Positions 36,058 through 52,468 of a stretch of DNA of 64,000 nt are shown in pieces. The stretch comes from Gammaproteobacteria bacterium (GTDB lineage Bacteria; Pseudomonadota; Gammaproteobacteria; JAUZRS01). Below the pieces are notes generated by a model that worked only from the letters and a program-made list of their open reading frames with translations, made no database searches and had not been told where the DNA came from. Both the position numbers and the translations under genes were made by a program. Location of the stretch: positions 264,534-328,533 of the forward strand of contig JAUZSP010000002.1 of the NCBI GenBank assembly GCA_030949385.1. Direction: 5' to 3'. Position 1 is the first letter of the stretch; each line of letters starts with the position of its first letter.

Positions 36058-36424
36058 CTCTCTGGAAAAAAGCCGATTATAGCCCTTGCTGGAAAATTTG
36101 AGGGTTGTTGCTTTGGTTGTTATGCGGCTGTTTTGAGTTTAATTGACTGTTTTTCAATGTTTTTGTTATTTTTTGAGAATATATTTCTCTTTGTTGTTGA
36201 GTGTGTTTTTCTGATCAGAAGAAGAAATTATTGCTGTTTTGCTTTAGAAAGAGATTGCAACATTTCCCGTTAATGTATACTTTACTTTAACTTATCACTA
36301 TAACTTAATGTCAGACCTTAGGAATTTTTGGTTTGAGAGCAGTCGAGAATGTGGAGTGATTCCGTTTATGGCTCAGGCAACGCTGAATAAAATGGCGGCT
36401 AAAACGTACGCAATGGGTGATTTT
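36058..36424. other. AT-rich intergenic region before the SPOR-TolC gene
   Basis: 367 nt separating divergent htrB and the secretion cluster, unusually AT-rich (many T runs) compared with the flanking genes. It contains a possible promoter near 36255-36281. The reading frame from 36308 to 36424 could be an N-terminal extension of the next gene, but its composition and the lipobox position argue against it. No RNA gene is recognised. Confidence 0.5.
36255..36281 (+). promoter_or_regulatory. Possible sigma-70 promoter of the giant-protein cluster
   Basis: TTGCAA (36255-36260) and TATACT (36276-36281) with a 15-nt spacer, shorter than ideal. The -10 hexamer is close to consensus. It is 144 nt before the chosen start. 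Confidence 0.3.
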
Positions 36425-38257
36425 ATGAGATACAAACGTGCAGGCTTGCTCGGTTCTTTGTTGCTGTTAGTGAGCTGTAGCTCGGTGCCCACTGTTGAGG
36501 AGATGGAGCTTGAACGAGCGAAAAATGTGGTTGAAGATCTGGAGAAGATTCGCCCCGCTGATCTCTTGGTCTTTGAGCAGCCGCTGACGTTAGATGAGGT
36601 GTTGGAGATTGGTCTGAGCAACAACCTTGAGTTGCGCATGGCTGACTTTGAACAGCAGATTTCTGATGACGTGGCGGTGGCTGCGAAGTTGTCGATGCTG
36701 CCTAATTTGGATGCTAATGCCTCTTCAGTGGATCGTACCAATCTGCCTGCTTCAGATGCCTTCAATGTGGATACCGGTTTGGTGGAACGCCAGAGTACGG
36801 TTGCAGAATTAAGACATACGGAAAAAGCCAACTTAACTCTGACCTGGAATGTGTTGGATTTTATGATGTCCTACACCCGTTCTAAACAGGCGGAAATGGA
36901 GCGTCAGGCAACGCGTTTGCGGCGGCAACGGCAAGCGCAAAATTTAGCTCTGGATCTGACCGATAACTATTGGAAAGCGGCCATCGCGGAGGATGCTCTG
37001 GATCATGTGCGTCGTGTTGAAGCGGAGTTGGATCAACAAAAAAAGCAGCTGCAACGTGAAAGCAGTAACTCCAACGCAGATAAATTTGCGATTAAAGAGG
37101 CAGAGCTAAGGCTGCTGGAGTTGGAACTCTCTATTCGTCAATTACAGGCCAACCTTTCTAAGGCACGTCTTGATTTGGCCAATCTCATGGGGCTGAATCA
37201 GAGCGTTAAGTTTTCTCTGGCGCGGGTAGATATTCAACCTATTATTGCTGATTTGCCTCGTCCTGAAGAGTTGGATATTTTCCAACTGGAAGAGTACGCC
37301 TTGAAACATCGTCCTGAACTGTATGAACAAGATCTTAAAGTTCATGTGCAGCGAGAGGAGGCTTATAACGCCTTGCTAAGAATGTTTCCTGGTTTTTCTC
37401 TGTTTGCTGGTCGTCATTACGATGGCAATACGCTTTTGAGGGCGAACTATTGGGGCTCCGTTGGTGCCAATTTGAGCATGGATCTGTTTGCTTTGCCCTC
37501 ACGTTACATGCAGATGCAGGGTGAAGAGAAGGCGGTGGAATTACTGAAAGTACAGCGTTTGATGATGACCGCTGGAGTGATTACTCAAACTCATGTGGCT
37601 CTGCTTGATTACGCCATTAAGGTGGATCGTTTTCTGTTGCTGGAAGAGACCTACACCCTCTCTTCGGAGTTGCTTGAGATGATGAGAAATAAAGATCGCA
37701 TTCAAAATGGCTCACGAACAAGCAGTAGTCTTCCCGTTACGCAAAAAATATTGGAAGAGATGGCGGCTAAATTACGGCGCGACGAAGCCGTGGTGGAGTT
37801 GTTGGCGGCACATAAGCGTCTGTTTGTCAGTTTAGGTGTGGACCCGAGTAAGTGGAACTTGGGTTTTGAAGCGTTGGGCATTACTCGTTTGGCACTGGAT
37901 CCGAGTCGTGATAATTCGATGGACTTAGAGGTAATGGAAAATCAGGCGGTTGCCAATGTGCTCTCTTTTGATCAGGAGCCGTCTTCTGGCGTGAGTTCCA
38001 TGATGAACAAATACCTTTGGTCTGTGCAGGTCGGGGCGTTCAAACGCACCATTGGACCGGCGCGTATCTTGACTCAGGTAGAGAGCTTGGTGGATCGTTT
38101 GGATCCGCGTGATGCGGTTATGAGCAATACACAACAGAACGGTGTAACACTCAGGCGGGTGCGTTTTGTCGGACTTTCAGAGCCTCAATCACGCAGTATT
38201 TGTGATGAGTGGCGCAGTCACGACTTAGAGTGCTGGAGCGTGAGACCCGGTTATTAA
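36425..38257 (+). CDS. TolC-like outer-membrane lipoprotein with C-terminal SPOR domain
   Basis: About 610 aa. The ATG at 36425 follows GGGTGA and gives MRYKRAGLLGSLLLLVSCSSVP with a lipobox (LVSC), so the protein is probably lipidated. Residues 50-500 are an outer-membrane efflux (TolC) domain with long coiled-coil helices, for example around RQATRLRRQRQAQNLALDL and the AYNALLRMFPGFSLFAGRHYDGN segment. Residues 530-610 (WSVQVGAFKRTIGPARIL to RRVRFVGLSEPQSRSICDEW) look like a SPOR domain, which binds denuded peptidoglycan. This fusion is unusual. The giant protein gene starts 27 nt downstream. Confidence 0.8.
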   Translation: MRYKRAGLLGSLLLLVSCSSVPTVEEMELERAKNVVEDLEKIRPADLLVFEQPLTLDEVLEIGLSNNLELRMADFEQQISDDVAVAAKLSMLPNLDANASSVDRTNLPASDAFNVDTGLVERQSTVAELRHTEKANLTLTWNVLDFMMSYTRSKQAEMERQATRLRRQRQAQNLALDLTDNYWKAAIAEDALDHVRRVEAELDQQKKQLQRESSNSNADKFAIKEAELRLLELELSIRQLQANLSKARLDLANLMGLNQSVKFSLARVDIQPIIADLPRPEELDIFQLEEYALKHRPELYEQDLKVHVQREEAYNALLRMFPGFSLFAGRHYDGNTLLRANYWGSVGANLSMDLFALPSRYMQMQGEEKAVELLKVQRLMMTAGVITQTHVALLDYAIKVDRFLLLEETYTLSSELLEMMRNKDRIQNGSRTSSSLPVTQKILEEMAAKLRRDEAVVELLAAHKRLFVSLGVDPSKWNLGFEALGITRLALDPSRDNSMDLEVMENQAVANVLSFDQEPSSGVSSMMNKYLWSVQVGAFKRTIGPARILTQVESLVDRLDPRDAVMSNTQQNGVTLRRVRFVGLSEPQSRSICDEWRSHDLECWSVRPGY

Positions 38258-38283
38258 TAGGATGTAAAAGAAAGGTGTGTGCG

Positions 38284-41200
38284 ATGAAGTTATTGAAGCT
38301 GGAAAACCGGATTGTTCTTGATGCTGCTGCGGTGATTGAAGCGGCACAGCATGACGCTTCCTTACCAACTGCAACACCTGCTGAGAGTCAACCGTTTGAT
38401 GCTGTTCCTTTTGATCAGCCGCCCCCTGTGGCGGCTGATGTGTTGGCGGCGTTGAGTTTGGAGCCGACAGGATCTGAAGGGCTGAACATCGCTCTGGTAG
38501 CGAATAATCTGGCCAATTATGCTGATTTAACGGACTCTCTGACGGCGCAGGGCGTAACGGTCATTACCTTTGATACCTTGAATGACTCTCCTGAAGCGGT
38601 ACTGCAACGAGTGGAAGCGTTGGCGGTGCAGCAAAATAGCGGTATTGCTTCTCTCTCTGTGATTTCGCATGGCGGTGGTGGTCGTTTTGCCTTGGGCAAT
38701 GAGATGATCACGGCGGAACGTATCTCCCAAGAAGGTTCGGCGTGGTCTGCGCTGAGCGATAATTTCTCTTCAAACTCAGCGGTCTACTTGTTTGGTTGTA
38801 ATGTGGTGGACGGCTCGGGGCGGGGGCAAGCGCTGTTGGATGGCTTGTCTTCTTTGACGGGCAGTACTGTTTTTGCCTCCAATGATCTTACTGGTGTGGG
38901 CGGTGATTGGGTTTTAGAGTCGGCATCTGCTGGTGCTGATCTCCAGTTGGCCACGCCCGATTCACGCATGTTGGTGGCGCTGGCGGGCTTTGAGGGTTCT
39001 TTGGCTAATACCCCACCTGTGGTGGTGGTGCCTGGTACGCAGAGTGTCAATGAGGATCTGGTCTTGGCCGTAAATGGTGTCAGTATCAGTGATCCCGACG
39101 TGCCTTTGGCTTTGGAGAGCACACGGGTGGTGGAGGTGACTTTGAATCTCACCGATCTCAACGGCGTAACGGTTTCGAGTGGTTTATTAACCTTAGGGCA
39201 AAATGTAGGCTTGACCTTTACGCCTTCTGCGGTGGGGGTGGTCTCTGATGGCATCGCTGATAGTCAGATGAGTTTTTTGGGCAGTATCACCGATGTGAAC
39301 GCCGCTTTGGCCAGTCTGAGCTTTCAGGGGGCAACCAATTTTAATGGCGGTTTGCAGGTACAGGTGAGCGTTAATGATCGAGGCAATATTGATACAGCAA
39401 TTGATATTGCGGTAGATCCAAACCAAATTGGGGTGCCCATTATTACCACGGCTGCTTTTGGTATCACGGTGGTGGCAGTGAACGATGCGCCTGTAAACAC
39501 GGTGCCGGTGGGGGTGCAGAACGCCATTGAAGATACGCCGTTGGTTTTTGCCGGTAGCGTTATTCAAGTCAGTGATGTGGATGCCAACGGCGCACCGCTT
39601 CAGGTCACGTTGGCGGCCACCAATGGCACGGTGAGCTTGGCCAATTTGGCGGGTTTGACCTTGGTTAATGGTACCGGTATTGCGGACAGCAGCGTTACAG
39701 TTACGGGTTCTGCGGCGGCAATCAATAACGCCCTCAATGGGGTCAGTTTTAATGCAGCGCCTAATTTTGTCGGTGCGGCGACCTTGACCTTGACCACCAG
39801 TGATCAAAATGCCGGTGCGCAAGGGTTGGGCGGCGCAGGCATCGCTAACAGCGTGATCGACATCAATGTGGCTGGGGTGAACGATGCGCCGGTGAATAAC
39901 TTGCCGGTTGTGGCCTTAAATGTGGTGGAAGATACCCCGTTGGTGATGACGGTGGCGAGTGGCACAGCGATTCAGGTCGGTGATGTGGAGTTGGGCGCAG
40001 CAGGTATTATGCAGGTCAGCCTGTTGGTGGACAGCGGTACTTTGAGTTTGGCGCAAGTCAACGGCTTAACCTTTACGGCAGGATCGGCGGTGCTGGGTGC
40101 AGCCAACCCCAGTATGATCTTCAGTGGCTCTGTTACTGATGTGAATGCAGCTCTGGATGGTTTGACTTACGCACCCGCAGCCAACTTTAATGGTGTGGTG
40201 AATCTGCAAATTTCCAGTAACGATTTAAATGCAGCAGGGGCGCAAGGCAGTGGCGGTGCGTTGACGACGGTGAACAACCTGGCTTTGAATGTGAGTGCCG
40301 TTAATGATGCACCGGTTTACACCTTGCCTGCAGCGGTACAGAACGTGGCTGAAGAGGGTTCAGTGCTCTTCTCTGTGGCGAATAATAATGCACTGGTGGT
40401 GAGCGATGCCGATGCGGGTATTAACCCGCTGCTGGTGACCTTGAGTGCTGCGGATGGAACCTTGACCTTGGCCACCACAGCGGGTCTGACCTTAATTACG
40501 GGCAATGGCACAGCAGACAGCAGCGTTACCTTTAGCGGCAGTGCAACGGCGATTAATACGGCTCTGGATGGCTTGCTTTTTAATGCAGCGACCAATTTTA
40601 CTGGCAACAGCCAAATTGTGCTGACGGTGAACGATCAAAATAACGGCAACCAAGGCAGTGGTGGAGCGTTGTCGGGGAACGGTGTGGTGAATTTGGCGGT
40701 TTCAGCCATTAATGATGCACCGGTTAATACGTTGCCCTTAGGACAAACAACCAATGAAGATCAGCCATTGGTGTTCAGCAACGCCACAGGTAACGCGGTA
40801 CAGGTTTCTGATGTGGACATCGCTGCTGCGCCGATGCAGGTCACGTTGAACGCCAGCAGCGGTACGCTTAGTTTGGCGCAATTGAACGGTTTGACCTTTC
40901 AAGGCGGTACAGGAATAGACAATGCCAGCATGACCTTTACCGGCACGGTGGTGGACATCAATTTGGCGCTGGATGGCTTGCAGTTTTCCCCCACCACCAA
41001 TTTCAGTGGCGCGGCCTCTTTACAGATGGTCAGCAACGATTTGAATGCCGGTGCGCAAGGGTTGGGTGGTGCTTTGTCAGCCAGCAGTACGGTGGCGATT
41101 ACGGTCAATGCAATTAATGACGCACCTCTTTTAAGCTTACCGGCAGCACAGACGATGTTGGAAGACGGTGTATTACCCCTGGGTGGGGTGCAGGTTAGCG

Positions 41201-43971
41201 ATGTTGATGTGGGCGCGGGGGTAATGACGGTCTCATTGACGCTGGGAGATCTGCAAACGGCGGCCAACGGTAGTCTGACTTTGGCCAGCAGTACCGGTTT
41301 GGTGTTTGCCGCTGGTTCATCAGCTACGGGCAGTACGATCACCTTTGATGGCTCGTTGACAGATATTAACGCCGCGTTGGCGACCTTAACCTACAGTGCT
41401 AATCCGAATTTTAACGGTACGGAGCGTCTCAATGTCGTGGTCAGTGACGGCGGTAATTCGGGCGTTGGGGGTGTTCTGAGTGACGCTGGAGGACTGGATA
41501 TTATCGTCACTGCTGTTAATGATGCACCGGTTTTGACTGTGCCTGGAGCGCAGGCCGTGAACGAAGATACGGATCTGCCCATCAGTGGTATCAGCATCAG
41601 CGATGTGGATGCGGGTAACGGTCGGGTTTCTGTAACCTTGAGTGCAGGCAGTGGCGTGTTGTCTTTGACCCCCAATGCAGGCCTTATTTTTACAGCGGGC
41701 AGTGGTAATCAAGACAGCAGTATGACTTTTAATGGCACCTTGGCGGATGTGAACGCGGCCTTGGCCAGCGTGGTTTTTTATCGGCCTAACCTTAATTTTA
41801 ACGGTACAGACACCATTTCTATTACGGTGGATGATCAAGGTAACAGCGGAAGTGTCAGTGCTGCGGGAACGACGGATAGTGCTTCTATTGCGGTTACTGT
41901 TAATGCGGTCAATGATGCGCCTGTGTTGACATTACCTGCGGCGCAAACGGTGGCCGAAGAGGGGGTGTTGGCGCTCAACAACATCAGTGTGGCCGATGTG
42001 GATGCGGGAACGGGTTTGTTGACGGTCAGTTTGACTTTGGGGGATGCACAGAACCCCGCTAACGGAACGCTTAATTTAGCCGGTAGCGCCAATTTAAATT
42101 TCGCCATCGGCTCTTCTGCCAACGGCAGCAGTATGACCTTTAGCGGCACAATCGCTGATATTAACAACGCTTTGGGTACGTTGACCTACACAGGGAATCT
42201 AAACTTTAATGGCAGTGAACGCTTGAATATCACGGTCAATGATGGCGGCAGTGTTGGTAGTGGTGGTTCTCTGTCGGACAGCGGTATGGTGGCGATTGAA
42301 GTCACCCCCGTCAACGATGCGCCGCTCTGGAATGTACCTGGTAATTTAGCCGTTAATGAAGACATCAGTCTGGCCGTCAATGGGATCAGCATCAGTGATG
42401 TGGATGCCGGTGTGACCCCACTCAGTGTGACGTTGAGTGCCAACAATGGCAGCTTGAGTTTGGGGCAGGTGACGGGGCTGAGTTTTGCGCCAAACTCCAC
42501 CCCAAGCAATCTCGCCTTCAGTGGCAGTTTGACCGACATTAATGCGGCTTTGGCAACCCTGACTTATCAGGGTAATGCAAACTTTTTTGGCAGCGATCAG
42601 ATTCAACTTTCTGTTGATGATCAAGGCGGTGGTGGCGGGGCGGCTCTGAGCGACAGCGGTCTGATTGATGTGGTGGTGTCACCGATCAACGACGGGCCGA
42701 ATATCGCTTTGAGTGTTTCCTCGTTGAGTTATCAAGAGGGTGATCTGCCTCTGCTTTTGGATGCTAATTTAACCGTAGTTGATCCTGACAGTACAAACTT
42801 ACAGAGCGCTACGGTGACTTTGGCTAATGTGCAGCAGGGGGATCTATTGGCCTTTACCAGCAGCGCCAATGTCAGTGGTAACTACGATGCGGCCAGTGGT
42901 GTCTTGACTTTGAGTGCTGATCCCGTGCTGGGGGCGACGGTGGCGGACTTTCAGAGCGCATTACAGTCTGTGACCTATGTGAATACTTTAAATACAGTGC
43001 CAGCAGGGTTGCGTCCGGTGATTTTTGCCGCCACGGATGGGGCTGATAGTGGGCTCTCTCCGACACTGACGCTGTCGGTTAACAGCGGTTTTACCGCCGT
43101 GCCAACCACGCCTGGAACGGTCACACCTGCTGACCCTCGCCCGCCCTTAAACGGCATTCAAACTCCAACGGGTGGTTTGACTCCTATTCCCAGCAGTAAC
43201 ATTGACCTCTTAGGTGGGGTTAATTTGCCAGCAGGTCAAACTAATGTGCCTCAGGGAGCTCAACTTTTATCACCCGACTCTAACCAAGCCCCCGTCAGTA
43301 ACAGCAGCGGTTTTCAGAGTTTATCCTTGCAAAATGTGCGAGCTGGAAGGGATGCGTTTCCTGATGAGTGCAGTCTGGATGAAATTTTTAAGCGTATTGA
43401 TATGGGGTGTCGTTTTGCTAATGTCGAGAAGGGTTTTGAGGATACGCAATACCTCTCTGTGGCCAGTGGTATCAAGGCCGGTTGGCAATACCCCATGGCG
43501 GATGAAAAACAGGGCTTATTGGATCAGTTGGCCGAAGGAGAGGGAGAGGCGTTGGGCTTAAATCAGCAGCCGGGTGATTTTTCTGCGGCTTATTTGGGTG
43601 ACAGACCGCCTATTTCTGAGGAGGCAGATGAGCTCTCTCCAGCCTTGCCTCAAGAGTCGAATGATGCGGGGTCGGGTGATGACGCACTCGACAGTGCGGT
43701 AGAGCTGTTTGCCGTGGAACCGGCAGCGGGAGCCAGCGTTAATATTCAACCTCTGGCTCCTCTGTCTGAGGTGGGTGATGTGTCCCAGACAGAGGAGCCG
43801 CTTGAAGTCGATGACTCGCGGGAAGAAGGTGAGTTGATTCTGGATGAGGATGAGTTGTTATTGGAAGATGAACCCTTGCCTGCTGATGCGGAGCTTGCTC
43901 CTGATCTGGATGCCAATGTGCAGATTCTGGGACGAGCGGTTAATGTGCTGGACAAAGGTTCGCTTGGTTAA
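38284..43971 (+). CDS. Giant secreted protein with DUF4347 and cadherin-like repeats
   Basis: 1895 aa. The start at 38284 gives MKLLKLENRIVLDAAAVIEA, a variant of the LExRxLLDAA N-terminal motif seen on many giant proteins of Gram-negatives. Residues about 65-230 are DUF4347, with SHG (His129) and FGC (Cys172) forming a caspase-like His/Cys pair. Residues 240-1600 are ten repeats of about 110-150 aa, most beginning NDAP. The last 295 residues are Pro-, Asp- and Glu-rich with a Cys pair (DECSLDEIFKRIDMGC). No RTX nonapeptides and no classical Sec signal are visible. It is probably a surface adhesin or matrix protein carried by the adjacent export genes. Confidence 0.8.
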   Translation: MKLLKLENRIVLDAAAVIEAAQHDASLPTATPAESQPFDAVPFDQPPPVAADVLAALSLEPTGSEGLNIALVANNLANYADLTDSLTAQGVTVITFDTLNDSPEAVLQRVEALAVQQNSGIASLSVISHGGGGRFALGNEMITAERISQEGSAWSALSDNFSSNSAVYLFGCNVVDGSGRGQALLDGLSSLTGSTVFASNDLTGVGGDWVLESASAGADLQLATPDSRMLVALAGFEGSLANTPPVVVVPGTQSVNEDLVLAVNGVSISDPDVPLALESTRVVEVTLNLTDLNGVTVSSGLLTLGQNVGLTFTPSAVGVVSDGIADSQMSFLGSITDVNAALASLSFQGATNFNGGLQVQVSVNDRGNIDTAIDIAVDPNQIGVPIITTAAFGITVVAVNDAPVNTVPVGVQNAIEDTPLVFAGSVIQVSDVDANGAPLQVTLAATNGTVSLANLAGLTLVNGTGIADSSVTVTGSAAAINNALNGVSFNAAPNFVGAATLTLTTSDQNAGAQGLGGAGIANSVIDINVAGVNDAPVNNLPVVALNVVEDTPLVMTVASGTAIQVGDVELGAAGIMQVSLLVDSGTLSLAQVNGLTFTAGSAVLGAANPSMIFSGSVTDVNAALDGLTYAPAANFNGVVNLQISSNDLNAAGAQGSGGALTTVNNLALNVSAVNDAPVYTLPAAVQNVAEEGSVLFSVANNNALVVSDADAGINPLLVTLSAADGTLTLATTAGLTLITGNGTADSSVTFSGSATAINTALDGLLFNAATNFTGNSQIVLTVNDQNNGNQGSGGALSGNGVVNLAVSAINDAPVNTLPLGQTTNEDQPLVFSNATGNAVQVSDVDIAAAPMQVTLNASSGTLSLAQLNGLTFQGGTGIDNASMTFTGTVVDINLALDGLQFSPTTNFSGAASLQMVSNDLNAGAQGLGGALSASSTVAITVNAINDAPLLSLPAAQTMLEDGVLPLGGVQVSDVDVGAGVMTVSLTLGDLQTAANGSLTLASSTGLVFAAGSSATGSTITFDGSLTDINAALATLTYSANPNFNGTERLNVVVSDGGNSGVGGVLSDAGGLDIIVTAVNDAPVLTVPGAQAVNEDTDLPISGISISDVDAGNGRVSVTLSAGSGVLSLTPNAGLIFTAGSGNQDSSMTFNGTLADVNAALASVVFYRPNLNFNGTDTISITVDDQGNSGSVSAAGTTDSASIAVTVNAVNDAPVLTLPAAQTVAEEGVLALNNISVADVDAGTGLLTVSLTLGDAQNPANGTLNLAGSANLNFAIGSSANGSSMTFSGTIADINNALGTLTYTGNLNFNGSERLNITVNDGGSVGSGGSLSDSGMVAIEVTPVNDAPLWNVPGNLAVNEDISLAVNGISISDVDAGVTPLSVTLSANNGSLSLGQVTGLSFAPNSTPSNLAFSGSLTDINAALATLTYQGNANFFGSDQIQLSVDDQGGGGGAALSDSGLIDVVVSPINDGPNIALSVSSLSYQEGDLPLLLDANLTVVDPDSTNLQSATVTLANVQQGDLLAFTSSANVSGNYDAASGVLTLSADPVLGATVADFQSALQSVTYVNTLNTVPAGLRPVIFAATDGADSGLSPTLTLSVNSGFTAVPTTPGTVTPADPRPPLNGIQTPTGGLTPIPSSNIDLLGGVNLPAGQTNVPQGAQLLSPDSNQAPVSNSSGFQSLSLQNVRAGRDAFPDECSLDEIFKRIDMGCRFANVEKGFEDTQYLSVASGIKAGWQYPMADEKQGLLDQLAEGEGEALGLNQQPGDFSAAYLGDRPPISEEADELSPALPQESNDAGSGDDALDSAVELFAVEPAAGASVNIQPLAPLSEVGDVSQTEEPLEVDDSREEGELILDEDELLLEDEPLPADAELAPDLDANVQILGRAVNVLDKGSLG
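39006..43080 (+). repeat. Cadherin-like tandem repeat block in the giant protein
   Basis: Ten in-frame repeats. The first begins near 39006, the following eight each open with a VNDAP-type motif, and the last, beginning NDGPN near 42690, is diverged. Each unit carries NEDxxL, a xISDVD or xVSDVD calcium-like motif, FxGSxxDINxAL, and NFNG. Units are not identical at DNA level, so this is an old array. Confidence 0.85.
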
Positions 43972-44020
43972 TGCTGCCTTTTGAGCTTGTTACGCTGTTT
44001 TGCTGAATCCGTCTGCCAAG

Positions 44021-46137
44021 ATGGTCAGCGCCAACCCTTCTTTGCAAGAGCAGCTTAAAACCCCGTGGCTGGGGTTGCGCTCTGATCTGAAGATCTACCC
44101 AGCGCCCCTAAATCAAGGTGCGCGCAGCTGGGTGGTAGAAGATCCCTGTTTCGGGGCAGCATTATCAAATGGGGGTGGAGGAAGGCGAATTTTTTCTGCA
44201 CCTCAGCCGTGAAGAGACGTTGGAAGCGGCGCTGTTGGCGCTGATCAAAAACACCCCCTTTCGGCCTTTGTTGCCGGATTTAGTTGCGTTTATCGAACGT
44301 TTACAGCAGGAGGGGTTGGCGCGTTTGCCTGTTGAGGATCACGTTCTGCGTGGAACAGAAAAAGGCTCGGTGGCGGGCTCTTTTTCTCAACGTTTGTTGC
44401 ACGGCTACGTCTATTTTCGCATTCCTGTTCTGCGCCCTGATCGTTTTTTAGAGCGAACCTACCCTGGGATAAAGTGGCTCTGGTCAACGCCGTTGCGGGC
44501 GTTTTACCTGTTGGCGGGGCTGTTGGGTTTGTTGCTGAGTTTTCAGCAGTACGAACACTACGCGGACAGCAGCAGTTTTTTATTTACTCCTAACGGCCTG
44601 CTGGGTTTTGCTTTTTCCTTGATTGCGCTCAAAATCGGTCACGAATTTTGTCACGCTTATGCAACCAAATCTTTGGGTTTACATGTGCGCAGCATGGGGG
44701 TGGCGTTTATTCTTCTGTGGCCGGTGCTCTACACCGACACCAGTGACGCTTGGAAGCTCTCTTCGCTGCGCCAGCGTTTGAAAATCAGTTCAGCGGGGGT
44801 GCTGTTTGAGTTGGTGGTGGCGGGTGTGGCGCTTGTTGCTATGGGCCATTTTGCCCGACGGTCTGTGGCGCAGTTTGATGTTTTTTCTCTCCAGTAGCTC
44901 CTTGGCCTCGTCACTGTTGATTAACCTCAACCCATTTATGCGTTTTGATGGTTATTATTTGCTGATGGATTGGTGGGGGGTAGATAATTTGCAGCCCCGT
45001 GCCTTTGCTCTGTTGCGTCACCGAGTACGCTGTTGGTTGGTGGATTGGCAAGGTGCGATTCCCGAACAGCACCCTCAGCAGCGTCGCTTGGTGATGTACG
45101 CGGCGTTAACTTTGGTTTATCGCTTGGTGTTGGCGCTGACCATCGCTCTGCTCGTTTATCACATGACGTTTCCGGCTTTGGGTCTGCTGTTGCTGGTGGT
45201 TGAATTATGGATTTTTATTCTGCGTCCGTTGTGGAGTGAAGTGCGGGATTTGTATCAACAGCGAGCGTTGTGGGGTGAACCTTATTATTTGTGGCGCAGT
45301 GGGATTCTATTGGGTGTTTTGCTCTTGATGTTTGCTCTACCTTTGCCGAGCATGGAGCGTTTGCCTGCGCTGGTGTTGTACGAAAATAGCCAGCGTCTGC
45401 ACGCTCCGGCAGCAGGTAAATTAGTGGTCTGGCGGGTGCGTTTGGGACAGCGGGTGCAAAGGGGTGATTTACTGGCTCAACTGCAAGACGAACGTTTGCA
45501 AAAACAGCGAGTGACAAACCAGTTTGATCTTAAGATGGTTGAACTGCGTCTTTCTCAGAGCAGCAACGGGGGGGAGCAGGGGGGCTATCGACGCTGGTTA
45601 TTGGCTGAAAAAGCCCGTCTGTTGGCGGCATTGGATACATTGCGCAGTGCAGAGCAGTTGTTGCAGGTTCGGGCGGGGCGTGAGGGCTGGGTGGTGGCCT
45701 TGAATGAGAGGTTGCGTGCAGGGGTTTTTGTGTCTAAAAAGAGTCACTTATTGACTGTGGCATCGGATCAGGAGGTGACTGTGACGGCGTACATGACTGA
45801 AGCTTTGCGGTCACAGATGCCGCCTTTGGCGATTTTACGCAGTGGGTTGTTATTGCCCTCTCAGGGTTGGTTTTCTCTGCGAGCAACGGCTTTGAGTCCG
45901 TTGCCGGTACGTCGTTTGCCAAATCAATCGCTGTATGATTTTGCTGGTGGTCCACTGGTGGCCTTGCGCCAAGGAGGTGAAGTGGAGCCGAAAGAGGCGC
46001 AGTTTGCTTTGCAATTGAAGCTTGAATCGAGGTCTCTTAATTTGTCTCATGGAGAGAGAGCATGGGTTTGGACGCTGCACCGAGGTGATGCACTATTGAG
46101 TCGTTTTGCTGCGTGGTTTGTGCAGCAGTTGAAATAA
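44021..46137 (+). pseudogene. M50 site-2 protease fused to HlyD-type adaptor, two frameshifts
   Basis: The reading is broken by an extra base near 44144 (CCC run) and another near 44841; correcting both gives a continuous protein of about 700 aa. N-terminal soluble part from LKTPWLGLRSDLKIYPAP, then membrane helices carrying the M50 zinc motif HEFCH (in KIGHEFCHAYATKSLG, about 44640-44654) and the second motif NPFMRFDGYYLL (about 44929-44964). Residues after about 470 form a periplasmic adaptor with lipoyl-like and coiled-coil parts (RLHAPAAGKLVVWRVRLGQ, then REGWVVALNERL). Both active-site motifs are intact, arguing against long-standing decay. The start is uncertain: 44021, or coupled at 43971 (TAATG). 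No ABC domain is present. Confidence 0.75.
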
Positions 46138-46153
46138 ATAAAAGGAGTGTTGG

Positions 46154-46870
46154 GTGTCTAAAGTAGGTTTGTTATTGGGTCTGATGTTATCTCTGTTGGC
46201 CTTAGAAGGGCGAGCAGCGGCTTTTCCGGTGGTGTTTGAAGCCTCACAACGGGCGGTGTTGTCGGCGGATCGTTCCGGTACCTTGGAGAGGGTGGTGGTG
46301 AGCGAAGGTTCGGTGGTGAAAAAGGGCGCGTTGTTGGCGCGTTTGGGCAGTGCCGAACTGGTCTTATTGCGTAAACGACAAGAGGCCAGCCTGAGATTTT
46401 TGAATGGGCAGCTCAATAACGCCGTGCGTTTGCGTAAAAATGGCTTGGCGGGGCTGGATGAAGAAAATCGCGCGCGCATGGAGCGTGATCTCTCTCGTGC
46501 AGATCTAAAAATTCTTAAACGCCAGATTAGCGAGTCGTCGATTCGTGCGCCTTTTGCGGCCACCGTGGTGGCCAAATTGGCCAAAGCGCACGAGTGGGTG
46601 CAGGAAGGCCAGCCGGTGGTGGAGCTGGTTAATACCCACCGTTTGCGTGCCGTGGCGAATGTTGATGTGGCGGCAGCGGTGTTATTGAAGAGGGGTGATC
46701 AGCATCGTTTTCAGCTGCCGGATCTGCGCACCTCGGTATTGGGTAAGGTGACCGCACTGGTGCCCGATGTGGACGTACGCAGCAATACGATGAAGGTGAT
46801 GTGGAAGATTGAGACACAGCCGCAAGGCTTGTTGGCGGGCATGAAAGGGACGGTTGAGTTTGGAAATTAA
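46154..46870 (+). CDS. HlyD/RND-type periplasmic adaptor
   Basis: 238 aa with signal peptide VSKVGLLLGLMLSLLALEGRAAA. The start is GTG at 46154, preceded by AAGGAG at 7 nt. The barrel-sandwich halves (LSADRSGTLERVVVSEGSVVKKG and SSIRAPFAATVVAK) flank a short coiled-coil. It would bridge an inner-membrane partner to the TolC-like protein. It is 16 nt after the M50-HlyD gene and overlaps the next gene by 17 nt. Confidence 0.85.
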   Translation: MSKVGLLLGLMLSLLALEGRAAAFPVVFEASQRAVLSADRSGTLERVVVSEGSVVKKGALLARLGSAELVLLRKRQEASLRFLNGQLNNAVRLRKNGLAGLDEENRARMERDLSRADLKILKRQISESSIRAPFAATVVAKLAKAHEWVQEGQPVVELVNTHRLRAVANVDVAAAVLLKRGDQHRFQLPDLRTSVLGKVTALVPDVDVRSNTMKVMWKIETQPQGLLAGMKGTVEFGN

Positions 46871-48248
46871 GCTGCCCAACAGCAGCGAACAGCTGCTGGT
46901 GCGTTTTATTCGCCTTTGTGGTGATGCGTTGGCAGCTCCGCAGCGACAAGAGGCGGCGGCCTTGATTGTGAACCGTATTGCTGAGATCAGTCGTACTGAC
47001 CGCGCTGTGCTGGTGGTGTTAGGTGCTCGTGATCCCCTGTTGGCGGTCAGTGGTGGGGCTGAATTGGCACAGGATCATGCCTTTGCTGATGCGATGTGTT
47101 CATTACGCGAGTTGTATTCTGAGTCAAACTTTGGGGTGTTGGTGCAGTCGTTGTCCAACGGGGAGCAACATCCGGCGTTGTTTCAATTGCAACAGGAGAT
47201 GGGCGGCAGTGCTTTGTTGTGGTTGCCGTTGCAGATCAGTGCTGATGGGTCGGATCGAGCGGAATACGCGCTCTGTTTGCAGCGTTGGTCGGGGATCAGT
47301 TGGCACCAAAATGATCTGCAACTGTTGCAACACGCCGCTTCGTTTTTAGGCCAAGCGTTGCAGCGGCAACGGAAAAAGCGGCTCAATTCTCAGCGACGTT
47401 GGTGGTGGGGGGCGGCGGCTCTGTTGCTGGCCACGCTGTTTGTACCGGTGACGGCCAGCATCACCGCGCCGCTAAAGATTATTGCTGATCGTCCCGCTTA
47501 TTTGTTTTCCAGCATGGACGGCATTGTGCGTGAGCTGTATGTGCGTCCTGGCCAGTGGGTGGAAGCAGGTGAGTTGCTGTTCAGTTTTGATGCGCGGGTG
47601 TTGGAGAAACGGCTGCAAGAGGCTCAGCAGAAAGTGGCGGTGGTGCGTGCGGAGTTAATGAGCCAACAGGCGGCGGCCTACGGCGATTCCAAGGCCCGTG
47701 CTGAGGTGCCGGTGAAACAATTGCAAGTGGAGCAAGCCGAAGCGGACGTGCGTTTTTATCAGATGCAGCGCCAACGCGCCGATGTTAAAGCGGAGCAGGC
47801 GGGGGTGGTGGTTTTGGATGATCCTGAGGCCTTGATCGGAGCGTCCTTGCGTACCGGCGAATTGATCTTGAGTTTGGCCGATCCACAGCGGGTTAAAGCG
47901 CGTTTGATGGTGGCGGCGGGTGATGTGGGTTTGGTTAACCAAGGGGCAAAAATGGATGTGCGTTTGGATCACGATCCGTTTCGAGTTTTACAGGCTAAGG
48001 TAGCGCAGGTGGGGTTTGAGGTGCGTCTGTCAGAGGATCAGGTGCCGTCGGTGATTGTGGATGGGGTGTGGGAAAACACACCATCAGGTGTGCGCCCTGG
48101 TCAACGAGGAGTAGCGAAGGTGTTTTCTGATAGCACTTTATTGGGTATGCAGTTGCTGCGTAAACCGTGGTTGGCATTGCGTGGTTTTTTTTGGGCTTTA
48201 AGCCAATCTTTGCAGCAGCAACAGAGCAGAAAAAAGAAACATCGCTAA
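46854..48248 (+). CDS. GAF domain fused to a membrane HlyD adaptor
   Basis: 464 aa from a TTG at 46854 inside the preceding gene, with AAGGGA just upstream; no ATG fits. Residues 1-175 look like a GAF-type cytoplasmic domain (AAALIVNRIAEISRTDRAVLVV, ALLWLPLQISADG). One transmembrane helix follows (WWWGAAALLLATLFVPVTA, about residue 185-205), then a periplasmic adaptor (PAYLFSSMDGIVRELYVRPGQ, coiled-coil to residue about 330, AEQAGVVVLDDPEALIGAS). A cytoplasmic sensor joined to a secretion adaptor is unusual. The 3' end overlaps the opposite gene by 51 nt. Confidence 0.8.
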   Translation: MSLEIKLPNSSEQLLVRFIRLCGDALAAPQRQEAAALIVNRIAEISRTDRAVLVVLGARDPLLAVSGGAELAQDHAFADAMCSLRELYSESNFGVLVQSLSNGEQHPALFQLQQEMGGSALLWLPLQISADGSDRAEYALCLQRWSGISWHQNDLQLLQHAASFLGQALQRQRKKRLNSQRRWWWGAAALLLATLFVPVTASITAPLKIIADRPAYLFSSMDGIVRELYVRPGQWVEAGELLFSFDARVLEKRLQEAQQKVAVVRAELMSQQAAAYGDSKARAEVPVKQLQVEQAEADVRFYQMQRQRADVKAEQAGVVVLDDPEALIGASLRTGELILSLADPQRVKARLMVAAGDVGLVNQGAKMDVRLDHDPFRVLQAKVAQVGFEVRLSEDQVPSVIVDGVWENTPSGVRPGQRGVAKVFSDSTLLGMQLLRKPWLALRGFFWALSQSLQQQQSRKKKHR

Positions 48249-49086
48249 ATGCAGCCAAGCCCAAAGTCGATAACGCCACGCCAGTTGTTGTGGGTTTTTG
48301 TTAGAGAGAATAAACGGGCGTTCTTTGGGGGCTTTTATAAGGTGAGTATCTGCTTGTAGACGCATTTCGGCGTGTTGTTTTCTGACTTCTTGCTGTGCTG
48401 CTTTGCGTACCGCTTGCCACTCGTGAAGATCAATTTTATTGTCGCCGTTTTTATCAAAACGATCCAATAATTGTTGTGGGTTTTTTTTTCCATTCTTTGA
48501 GCAGAGCAAGGGTGTCGGCATTTTTGTCCAGCAGCAGCCCTGAGCTACTGAGAGTGAGTAGGTCACCCAAAACATAAAGTGATTCTCCTGGATGAAAAAA
48601 TTGAATTTTATAGAGCGTTTCTCCCACTTGCCAACGGCGAGATTGCGCCCCGTAAATTTCCACCCCTTCTGGATCAATCACACAACTGCCATTGTCGTCT
48701 TGCAGTAAAAAAGTATCCTCACTCTGGCCGGAACTGATTAAACGCCAGCGTTCTGTTTCCCGACGATAGACCGAATAACGCTGCCAGACACAGGGTGGGC
48801 CGCTGGCAAAACCAATCGCCTTGGCACCGGGAGGCAGAGAACACCTCCCGATAAATTCCACATAACCTTGCGCCGCGCTGTTAATTTGTGAGGTGGGCGT
48901 GTCAATTATGTAACGATAACGGCGAAAATTGTGCAGCCATGTTGCGAATGCGGTTAGCGCCAAAGTGGCAAAAATAAAGAGTTGATGTTGTAATTGCAGT
49001 CTGAATAAAAAAGGCAGCAGTGCGGTACTGTAAAGCGCAAGCAGCAGAGGGTTTAAGTGTCGAATCTGTAACCATTTAAACAGCAT
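48198..49086 (-). pseudogene. GIDE-like membrane protein with EF-hand, frameshift in an A9 run
   Basis: 295-aa protein when one A of the nine at 48481-48489 (coding strand A9) is removed. Two N-terminal helices (LNPLLLALYSTALLPFLFRL, LFIFATLALTAFATWLHNF) and a GIDE-like domain (GYVEFIGRCSLPPGAKAIG to ESLYVLGDLL) come first. After the join there is an EF-hand (DKNGDNKIDLHEW, all calcium ligands present) and a last helix. GIDE-like proteins often travel with LemA, as here. Overlaps the end of the GAF-HlyD gene by 51 nt. Confidence 0.7.
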
Positions 49087-49097
49087 AAGGGTTACTT

Positions 49098-49673
49098 TTA
49101 ACCTTTAAAAAGCTGTTGTACGTTGATGTCTTTAATTTCGTGTTTGCGAAAACTGAGCAGACGATGAGGTTCAAAATGAAACAGGTGTGCAATCAGTAGA
49201 TCAGGAAATTGCTCAATACGGATGTTATTGATGTTGACCACTTCGTTGTAAAATTCACGTCGATCACTGATGGTGTTTTCTAAATTGCTGATGCGCCCTT
49301 GCAGGTGTTGAAAATGTTCATCAGCTTTCAGTTCAGGATAATTTTCTACCACCGCAAACAACTGGCCTAAACCGGCACGCAGTTGGTCTTCGGCCAGATC
49401 TAGAGCTGGCATATCGGTTCGGGATTGGGCTTTGGCGACCCGACTGCGCGCTTCAGTCACTTGTCGTAAAGTTTCTTGCTCGTGCTGCATGTATTGTTTG
49501 CAGGTGGCGATCAGTTTGGGCAGTTCATCGTGGCGCTGTTTTAATAAGACATCAATGTTTCCCCAGGCTTTTTTTACATTGTGTTTGAGGGAGATTAAAC
49601 GGTTGTAAATTAAGATGGCGTAAATAACGGCAGTGGCACTGAAGAGTAGAAAAATAAGCCGAGGTGTGTCCAT
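49098..49673 (-). CDS. lemA: LemA family protein
   Basis: 191 aa. One N-terminal membrane helix (LIFLLFSATAVIYAILIYNRL) followed by the long-helical LemA fold with AWGNIDVLLKQRHDELPKLIATCKQYM and VENYPELKADEHFQHLQGRI, both strong family signatures. Biochemical role unknown in bacteria; it often pairs with GIDE/YpmB-like membrane proteins. Starts 45 nt after the HD-GYP-like gene and is likely in the same operon as lapG. Confidence 0.92.
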   Translation of the reverse strand: MDTPRLIFLLFSATAVIYAILIYNRLISLKHNVKKAWGNIDVLLKQRHDELPKLIATCKQYMQHEQETLRQVTEARSRVAKAQSRTDMPALDLAEDQLRAGLGQLFAVVENYPELKADEHFQHLQGRISNLENTISDRREFYNEVVNINNIRIEQFPDLLIAHLFHFEPHRLLSFRKHEIKDINVQQLFKG

Positions 49674-49718: not shown

Positions 49719-51788
49719 TTATTCCTGTAACCAATCTTCGGGCGCATGGTTCTCTGCAAAATTAAGCAGCGCCGCTACCACTTTTCGGTCGTATTGAGCA
49801 CTGTCGGCCAGCAGGTGATTGATGGCGGTTTGTTTGTCCAGAGCTTCACGCCATGGGCGCGGTTGCACCATCGCAATCAATGAATTGGCTACCGCTAAAA
49901 TACGGCCTTCAATTTGGATCTGTTTGTTTGTGAGTGCGTCAGGATAACCGGAGCCGTCGAGACGTTCAAAGCTTTGCTGAATGGTTTTTAGAACAGGGCC
50001 GGTAAAATTAATCTCTTGTAACAGAGTTTGGGTGTGTTGCAGGTGTTGTTGTACTTGTTGACGTTCGTCGAGGGTCAGCGGCTCCTTTTTATTTAACACC
50101 TCTTGCGGCAGATAGAATTTACCGACATTGATTAAGCTGGCGGCCAGATGCACCGTCTGCTGTTGTTGTTGATTCAAATTAAGCTGCTGCGCCAGTTGGT
50201 CGGCTACTTCGGTGACTCGTTCAGCGTGTTTGACTGAGTAGGGGTCGTGGGTTTCCAGTACTTTGGTCAGGGTATTGATCAACTGGGAGAGCATCTGTTG
50301 CTGCTGATTTTCCGCCGCCATGATTTGGGTCAGGTCATGGGCGACACAGAGGGTAACGGCTTCGCTGTTGTCGGTGGGGGTCAGGTGGCGAAAGGTGCTG
50401 TGATAGATGCCTGTTTTACCGGCAATCTCCAGATTATGGCGCAGTGAGTAGGGTTTTTGTTGTGTTTGGGCTTGCTTGCTGGCCTGTTCTAAGCGTTTGC
50501 TGGTGTAGGGACCAAATGTGTCGTGTAGGGTTTTGCCATGCAGTTGCTCTGCTTGGCTATCGAGTTTTTGCGCGAGGGCTTTATTGACAAAAATCAGTCG
50601 TTGTTGTGAGTCAATCAAAGCAATGCAGTCACTGACGTTGTCGGTGATGCTGTGCAGCAATTGTTGCTGATCTTGCAGTTTGGAGCTTTGTTGATTGAGT
50701 TGTAAATTGAGTTGTTGGTAACGACGACTGGTGCCGTGTCGCCACGCGGCCAGCAGGCCTAAACCGACGCTGATAAACAGTAAAATCAGCAGTCCGCTGA
50801 GAAAGCGTTGCCGACTGAGGGACTCTTGCAGTGCTTCGGCGCGATTAATTTTGCTGATTAAAATCCATGGCGTATGCAAAATGGGGCGGCTGGTTAGCAG
50901 CACTTCTTGCCCTGCGTAATCCAAATTTTGGATGAATTTTCCGGTCTGCTTGGCTGCTTGGGCGGCAGCGATGTTTTGGTTGCGGTTGATGCGCCGTTGT
51001 AAAGCGGCGCTGTTGCGGTGTTGATTCAGATAGGTGAGGTGATTGACCTCTTTTATCAACAGCAAATTTTCTTGGCTGGAGTTGCTTAAGCCTTGTTGTT
51101 GCAGGTTTTTTTGCAAGGCTGCGGCAATGGGTTGAACGCCCAGTAGATAGGCGATGGGCTGGGCATGAGCGCCTTGCAGGGCTTGTACGGGGACAATAAA
51201 AGCGAGGCTCAGCTGTTCCTTGTGATTTAAATACGGTTGGCTTAAGTGCCGTTTGCCACTCTGTTGTGCAAGGCGAATTAATTCTGCAACAGTGCGGGTC
51301 TGGGCTGGAAAGGCGCGACTTTGTACTTCAATTTTGCCGCTGGCGTTCAGCAGCGCGATGCCCGCCGATCCCCATGTGGGCAAATTGGCGTTGCTGCGGG
51401 GCAGTGTGCTGTGGTTGGCAAATTCGCTGCTGTTGGCACTCGCTTCCAGCAGGTCACGCAGATAGCTCTGTTCGGCGTATTCAGAACTGTCTGGGGTCGA
51501 GTCTTGTGTGGTTTTTAGGTTTAACTGGGTCATGTAAAGTTGCAAGGAGCTGTTCCACGCTAAGGCTTCCAAGGTGTTGTATTGATCTTGCAGCCAGCTT
51601 TGCACGGCACTTTGACGACTGTTGGCGATGAGGTTGAGTTTTTCTTGCCAGATGCGCAAATCTCGCTGCCGTTCTTTTTCCAGCAACAGATGGCTTAGAG
51701 AAAGGCTTAAGCCAATAAAAAAGAGCAAGAGGCTGCTCATCAATAGCCAGCGGTGTTTTAAGCGGGGTGGGGTCTGTGCTGAAGTCAT
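49719..51788 (-). CDS. Membrane sensor with PAS and degenerate HD-GYP domain
   Basis: 689 aa from MTSAQTPPRL. Helices at about residues 12-36 and 327-347 enclose a periplasmic domain of about 290 residues with a Cache-like look (end: ILHTPWILISKINRAEALQ). Then come a PAS domain (SITDNVSDCIALIDSQQRLIFVN) and an HD-GYP-like module. The usual HDIGK reads INVGK and HHExxDGSGYP reads QSFERLDGSGYP, so key metal ligands are missing and phosphodiesterase activity is unlikely. Overlap with lapG is 4 nt (ATGA), hinting that it works as a signal receptor for LapG. Confidence 0.8.
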   Translation of the reverse strand: MTSAQTPPRLKHRWLLMSSLLLFFIGLSLSLSHLLLEKERQRDLRIWQEKLNLIANSRQSAVQSWLQDQYNTLEALAWNSSLQLYMTQLNLKTTQDSTPDSSEYAEQSYLRDLLEASANSSEFANHSTLPRSNANLPTWGSAGIALLNASGKIEVQSRAFPAQTRTVAELIRLAQQSGKRHLSQPYLNHKEQLSLAFIVPVQALQGAHAQPIAYLLGVQPIAAALQKNLQQQGLSNSSQENLLLIKEVNHLTYLNQHRNSAALQRRINRNQNIAAAQAAKQTGKFIQNLDYAGQEVLLTSRPILHTPWILISKINRAEALQESLSRQRFLSGLLILLFISVGLGLLAAWRHGTSRRYQQLNLQLNQQSSKLQDQQQLLHSITDNVSDCIALIDSQQRLIFVNKALAQKLDSQAEQLHGKTLHDTFGPYTSKRLEQASKQAQTQQKPYSLRHNLEIAGKTGIYHSTFRHLTPTDNSEAVTLCVAHDLTQIMAAENQQQQMLSQLINTLTKVLETHDPYSVKHAERVTEVADQLAQQLNLNQQQQQTVHLAASLINVGKFYLPQEVLNKKEPLTLDERQQVQQHLQHTQTLLQEINFTGPVLKTIQQSFERLDGSGYPDALTNKQIQIEGRILAVANSLIAMVQPRPWREALDKQTAINHLLADSAQYDRKVVAALLNFAENHAPEDWLQE

Positions 51789-52468
51789 GGGGCTGATCCT
51801 GCTGCGGTTCGGTGTTGTGAAGAGGGGGGCAGATAACGCCACCAGTTGTTCTCATTTATGGCGTAGATCGGTTCCAGATGGGCGATGTCGGTATCGTGTA
51901 CGACCTGTTTAATACGGTTGTCGAGGATGTATATGGTGTTGTTTAAATAGACCGCCAAAACCGCATGGTAAATATTAATATTGCTGTCTTTGGCAATTAC
52001 CAGCCGCAGTTGATCGGTACGAAAACCCAATTTTCTCAGAGCGTAATATTTACTGATGCCGTAATCCTCGCAATCACCGCCGTTGTGCAAAAAAAATTCA
52101 GCGGGTGTGGCCCAGTAATCGGAGCGGCGGTAATTTCGATCGTCGCTGATGTAGGTTAATTTGTTGGTGAAGCGGTGGATGCGTTTTATTTTTTGCACGC
52201 CGCTGGCGGTTTGTAAACGGCGGATTAAAGTGTTCAACTCCAGATCATAGCAGCTTCGATAGAAGGACTTTTTGCATTTTTTGGCCGGTTTATTAAGAGC
52301 TTCTTGGTGGCGCTCCAGCATGGTGAACCATTTTGGAAACAGAGCTTGATCTGGGTTATGGATCTTCTCCCGATAGCCAAACAGACCGTCGCGCCAATGT
52401 TCGTTACCTTGGGCGGAACCGAGTAGGGTAAACAGCAGCAGAGCCATCAGAGGCCAGTTCAATCGCAT
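51785..52468 (-). CDS. lapG: LapG-type periplasmic cysteine protease
   Basis: 227 aa with a signal peptide (MRLNWPLMALLLFTLLGSAQGNE), of the transglutaminase-like (BTLCP) family. The triad Cys133 (in NGGDCEDYGISKYYALRKLGF), His168 (NIYHAVLAV) and Asp183 (YILDN) is intact. LapG in Pseudomonas cleaves a giant adhesin at the outer membrane and is held off by the c-di-GMP receptor LapD. Here the partner gene downstream is the degenerate HD-GYP protein instead. The start at 52468 is supported by the signal peptide; an upstream frame extension is not. Confidence 0.88.
   Translation of the reverse strand: MRLNWPLMALLLFTLLGSAQGNEHWRDGLFGYREKIHNPDQALFPKWFTMLERHQEALNKPAKKCKKSFYRSCYDLELNTLIRRLQTASGVQKIKRIHRFTNKLTYISDDRNYRRSDYWATPAEFFLHNGGDCEDYGISKYYALRKLGFRTDQLRLVIAKDSNINIYHAVLAVYLNNTIYILDNRIKQVVHDTDIAHLEPIYAINENNWWRYLPPSSQHRTAAGSAP

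Follow-up and report, generated by a model that had tools for sequence, protein, structure and literature searches.

A catalytically dead HD-GYP receptor of the DvhD type probably controls LapG in a marine gammaproteobacterium

The surface-protein-cutting protease LapG of a marine gammaproteobacterium is very probably controlled by a dead HD-GYP domain turned c-di-GMP sensor, in the manner of the DvhD/DvhG system. The evidence comes from a stretch of 64,000 nucleotides (the window), in which lapG adjoins the gene of a membrane protein (Table 1). The HD-GYP domain of this protein has lost metal ligands, has kept nucleotide-contact residues and shares its ancestry with that of DvhD; the pair is conserved in relatives, and LapD was not found in the source genome. 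To our knowledge, a switch of LapG by a dead HD-GYP domain has so far been demonstrated experimentally only in Desulfovibrio.

By analogy with Desulfovibrio vulgaris, from which c-di-GMP binding, the restraint of LapG and the direction of control are carried over to the window pair, the membrane protein would be a c-di-GMP receptor built from a catalytically dead HD-GYP domain. Binding of c-di-GMP would take place at the cytoplasmic HD-GYP dimer, and the PAS domain and transmembrane helices would then relay the change to the dCache domain on the periplasmic side, by which LapG would be restrained. Upon a drop in c-di-GMP, LapG would be freed and would release a cell-surface protein by cutting it at a site of the [T/A/P]AAG type. 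The source genome encodes 26 GGDEF domains, which points to an active c-di-GMP network.

The lapG product matches Pfam Peptidase_C93 (E = 5e-15), and its sequence matches in the PDB are two LapG-like proteases and no others. The C133-H168-D183 triad is invariant in an alignment of 15 homologs, as is the calcium site D132/E134. The ATG codon is preceded by an AGGAGAG ribosome site, and the N terminus is an apparent signal peptide. A genome search returned this single C93 gene.

As stated in the earlier note, lapG is overlapped by a gene encoding a membrane protein with a periplasmic domain, a PAS domain and an HD-GYP domain, which Pfam, the AlphaFold2 model and the overlap itself bear out. The receptor ATG and the lapG stop codon overlap as ATGA, suggesting translational coupling. 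The ATG at 51788 is probably the start of the receptor gene, a GTG at 51842 being less likely. In the model (mean pLDDT 77.7), the periplasmic domain spans residues about 55-340 and is membrane-anchored. The PAS match in Pfam spans residues 401-506, and PAS and HD_5 are the only cytoplasmic Pfam domains; the search of the protein revealed neither a HAMP-GGDEF-EAL module nor a LapD_MoxY_N domain. The most conserved periplasmic stretch of the receptor family, residues 92-105, which includes NSSLQLYM, takes in the break that follows the first long helix in the model, together with the beginning of the next one. Its position would correspond to the alpha-1' helix, proposed as the LapG contact by Font et al. 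(PMC13090378). Downstream of the receptor gene are LemA-like and GIDE-like genes (48454-49673) that are absent at the same place in the sister genome.

Table 1. Features of the LapG locus and of the neighbouring operon in the window
Feature	Position	Strand	Evidence or remark
Convergent operon: TolC-like, DUF4347/cadherin giant, M50-HlyD, HlyD, HlyD	36308..48248	+	Considered as substrate/exporter
DUF4347/cadherin giant protein	38284-43971	+	
dvhD-type receptor gene: TM, dCache-like periplasmic domain, TM, PAS, degenerate HD-GYP	49719..51788	-	Pfam, model, Foldseek, ATGA overlap
Periplasmic dCache-like domain, residues about 55-338	50829..51680	-	Foldseek 9rc2 and profile match
PAS domain, residues about 395-506	50325..50660	-	PAS_4 E 1e-8, PAS_9 E 2e-7, 9rc0 structural match
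Degenerate HD-GYP domain, residues 524-688	49779..50273	-	HD_5 E 4e-40; clade with DvhD 100/99
Lost HD motif, I571-N572	50127..50132	-	Alignment: [AI]N in 14/14 family members, SQ in DvhD
Lost double histidine, S624-F625; next residue E626 kept	49968..49973	-	Alignment
Lost metal-ligand Asp, N653	49884..49886	-	Alignment: N in 14/14 and DvhD
lapG/dvhG-type periplasmic transglutaminase-like cysteine protease, 227 aa	51785..52468	-	Pfam C93, PDB LapG matches, triad and calcium site

The metal site of the receptor HD-GYP domain is largely dismantled. The alignment confirms that HD has become IN, which the earlier note had read from the string INVGK. The loss of HHE, also claimed there, holds for the two histidines, which are replaced by SF, but the glutamate is retained and is the only residue of the HHE motif to remain; a further ligand, an aspartate, is replaced by asparagine. 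The HD, HH and D ligands are replaced in all 14 LapG-linked receptors and in DvhD. They are retained in the other HD-GYP protein of the source genome (L134).

DvhD and DvhG of D. vulgaris were described by Font et al. (Nat Commun April 2026; PMC13090378). According to that paper, DvhD consists of a dCache periplasmic domain, a PAS domain and an HD-GYP domain with SQ in place of HD and MN in place of HH; it binds but does not hydrolyse c-di-GMP and has the LapG-like protease DvhG under its control, and the LapG cleavage consensus is [T/A/P]AAG. The DvhD chains 9rc0 and 9rbz are the top PDB matches of the window receptor and its nearest solved relatives by sequence. A profile of 14 window-type receptors matches 9rc0 with an E-value of 1.5e-81, and its periplasmic half gives a weak match to the DvhD dCache chain 9rc2 (E = 0.008). 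When the AlphaFold2 model was submitted to Foldseek, the PAS/HD-GYP part of DvhD occupied PDB ranks 1-5 and its dCache domain rank 9, 9rc2 being the first isolated periplasmic domain among the matches (E = 4e-9, TMt 0.73). A maximum-likelihood tree was built from the HD-GYP domain only, with the 14 LapG-linked proteins and DvhD set against 24 other HD-GYPs, including L134, almost all of which have complete metal ligands. The 14 proteins and DvhD form one clade with a support of 100/99, towards which the shared ligand loss could have drawn the rows slightly, although the branch is long and the ligand columns are few.

The residues that contact c-di-GMP in DvhD were mapped onto the receptor, and all eleven published DvhD letters agreed with the numbering of the alignment. 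The receptor has the same residue as DvhD at the canonical contacts Y523, L577, Y621, M646 and R650 (its Y535, L589, Y633, M658 and R662), and K582, Y652 and E668 have conservative replacements (R594, W664 and D680). At the bridging site, P567 is kept as P579, K520 is replaced by H and R569 by E. As K520 and R569 are not conserved, the second c-di-GMP site and the three-nucleotide dimer may differ from those of DvhD.

It could be argued that the receptor is mainly a periplasmic sensor, in which the dCache domain, of a kind that usually binds ligands, would bind a small molecule, the dead HD-GYP domain would only dimerise, and LapG would be gated externally and not by c-di-GMP. The missing catalytic ligands and the altered bridging site are compatible with such an arrangement. 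It is nevertheless improbable, given that the canonical c-di-GMP contacts are largely retained across 14 divergent family members and that the homolog DvhD binds c-di-GMP with sub-micromolar affinity (PMC13090378). That the receptor is an active c-di-GMP phosphodiesterase merely adjoining lapG is scarcely credible: although the HD-GYP fold is present and this enzyme class is common, the ligand replacements extend to every family member, DvhD, which has lost the same ligands, shows no activity (PMC13090378), and adjacency to lapG is conserved in relatives. The catalytic phosphodiesterases PmGH (4mcw) and that of V. cholerae (5z7c) have the HD-GYP fold and the GYP loop in common with the window receptor, which, unlike them, has lost HD, HH and D and is predicted to be a binder and not an enzyme.

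The preferred reading is that of a DvhD-type c-di-GMP receptor. Judged by sequence and predicted structure, the window pair belongs to the DvhD/DvhG kind, here in a gammaproteobacterium. Like DvhD/DvhG (BfsD/BfsG, DVU1020/DVU1019; D. vulgaris Hildenborough), it comprises a dCache-PAS-degenerate HD-GYP receptor adjoining a LapG-type protease, with the same metal ligands lost, the canonical c-di-GMP contacts kept and a common HD-GYP clade. Unlike the Dvh system, the pair stands outside any T1SS adhesin operon, its receptor differs at the bridging site, its host belongs to the Gammaproteobacteria, and no retention-module adhesin over the cut-off was found in the source genome. The window LapG has an ordinary signal peptide, reportedly as most DvhG orthologs do, in contrast to the long membrane anchor of DvhG. 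The earlier note had supposed that the membrane protein may be an analogous c-di-GMP- or signal-gated controller of LapG instead of LapD, and homology to DvhD (PMC13090378) strongly supports the c-di-GMP-gated form of this idea. The idea of such a controller is not new in kind, as publication of the Dvh system preceded it, and Gammaproteobacteria may already be counted in the class-level distribution of PMC13090378. As with LapD/LapG of Pseudomonas fluorescens, a periplasmic LapG would be restrained by an inner-membrane c-di-GMP receptor, here a predicted one. Unlike LapD, this receptor has neither LapD_MoxY_N nor GGDEF-EAL, and the window LapG lies outside the LapD-linked LapG group.

The distribution of the two receptor types was examined in a sample of 370 gammaproteobacterial genomes, among which LapG was found in 69 and LapD-type domains (LapD_MoxY_N search) in 72. 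The earlier note had weighed its proposal against a canonical lapD elsewhere in the genome and against an HD-GYP gene not conserved next to lapG. The LapD_MoxY_N search that was positive in those 72 genomes found none in the source genome. A window-type receptor lies directly beside LapG in 14 of the 40 LapG neighbourhoods read in other genomes (the sister G001 included; one of the 14, L064, is cut by a contig end). This adjacency is far beyond chance, as it is conserved in relatives. With the source genome, 15 genomes contain the receptor-LapG pair. LapD is absent from 12 of these 15 and from 7 of the 54 other LapG genomes (Fisher p 2e-6), the genomes counted being related members of about 8 families and thus not fully independent. 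In a LapG tree, a branch with 99/98 support splits all 22 LapD-linked LapGs from all 15 receptor-linked ones, the tree being unrooted and built without a DvhG sequence, with four long-branched LapGs of neither type on the receptor side.

Outside the lineage of the window, the gene divergent from LapG usually encodes a TPR-plus-β-barrel outer-membrane protein resembling Slam (DUF560, type XI secretion). Such a neighbour is present in 11 of the 14 receptor-type loci versus none of the 26 other LapG loci (p 1.6e-7). It resembles Slam in its short TPR region and predicted barrel of 14 strands (AlphaFold2, pLDDT 85). Unlike bona fide Slam, it remains below the curated Pfam cut-offs (TPR_Slam 29.3 of 35.2 bits, SlipAM 16.1 of 22), and its PDB matches are generic barrels only. 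A secreted protein is also encoded near the pair in relatives, with a mature N terminus of the form DSVYxWGxW(4-5 residues)PAAG, or the variants PLAG and PASG; PAAG contains the LapG consensus. This protein likewise occurs in 11/14 receptor-type loci versus 0/26 others, and a DNA pattern for the motif was found in 10 of the 15 receptor-type genomes versus 28 of 355 others (p 8e-8). Both genes stand beside the pair in L052, L055, L057, L061, L065, L071, L073, L075 and other loci; in G234, the motif protein is on a separate contig end, together with the missing end of the porin gene. One motif-bearing candidate cargo protein has a TbpB-like barrel (E 4e-6), as in type XI secretion. Proteins with PEP-CTERM-like tails are encoded beside PAAG-motif proteins at L055:3806-4567, L065:10011-10715 and L071:3938-4597.

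The porin and cargo genes are not found beside the pair in the window, in the sister genome or in G288, and the cargo pattern has no match in the source genome (G000) or its sister (G001). The T11SS-like proteins of the source genome are all distant ones (E 4e-25 and 4e-15); their genes adjoin LysM/FecR-type genes, and the cargo motif is missing. No paper that connects LapG to type XI secretion came up in a literature search, and neither of two T11SS surveys mentions LapG or HD-GYP. Neighbourhood and motif suggest a link between the LapG pair and Slam/T11SS-like export. It is tentatively proposed, as a plausible idea that stops a little short of probable, that in Gammaproteobacteria the receptor and LapG, unlike T1SS adhesin systems, control the release of Slam/T11SS-like-exported cargo carrying a DSVYxWGxW retention motif and then PAAG after the signal peptide, and that this partner was lost or exchanged in the window lineage.

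The earlier note had pointed to a giant protein 8 kb away as the substrate. The pair would then control the product of the convergent operon, with LapG cutting near its C terminus and releasing it, but this is unlikely. The N terminus of the giant reads LENRIVLDAAA, a cysteine pair close to the C terminus (CSL..GCRF) is conserved, and the operon is without an ABC transporter. The operon is common to the window, the sister genome, where only the downstream part is on the contig, and G288; in the source genome and its sister it adjoins the pair, and in G288 it lies on another contig than the pair. G288 has the nearest LapG/receptor pair outside the genus, and its M50-HlyD protein is 51% identical, far above any other genome, M50-HlyD matches occurring in 65 of the 370 class genomes. 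The PAAG site also lies within a locally conserved stretch, ELFAVEPAA. Against this, the position is not conserved: the sister species reads PAAS there, and G288 has a gap, with a TAAG elsewhere. When C-terminal segments of 250 residues are shuffled, a site arises in 5% of cases for the window and 22% for G288, and when the full-length sequences are shuffled, in more than half. The giant has no LapA retention module, and the M50-HlyD exporter gene (44003-46137), a single intact frame of 709 aa in the sister G001, is broken into three frames here, owing either to pseudogene formation or to assembly indels.

No T1SS adhesin was found beside the window pair, and no conserved LapG site among the giant proteins read in the source genome. 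The LapA retention module (retention_LapA) gave only matches below the cut-off in that genome, the best being a protein adjoining its second T11SS-like gene. Contig 9 of the source genome encodes, at about 116-142 kb (L229:17296 to L224:4278), three BapA-like T1SS giants in tandem, whose frames are broken; TPR, TolC, ABC transporter and HlyD genes come after them. They were rejected as LapG substrates, as none of the three has a LapG site after its N-terminal domain; the PAAG strings that they carry close to the C terminus seem to belong to a folded repeat domain.

LapD was defined in the Gammaproteobacteria, and within this class a DvhD-type receptor would stand in for it. LapG genes of this class then cannot be presumed to be under the control of LapD. 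With two receptor types and separate LapG branches, the class would provide natural material for mapping the recognition between protease and controller. The Slam/T11SS-like neighbour and the PAAG cargo of the relatives go beyond the Dvh precedent and are the newest part of this work; PAAG-bearing proteins beside such a porin would offer a test case for a c-di-GMP-controlled LapG that releases non-T1SS cargo.
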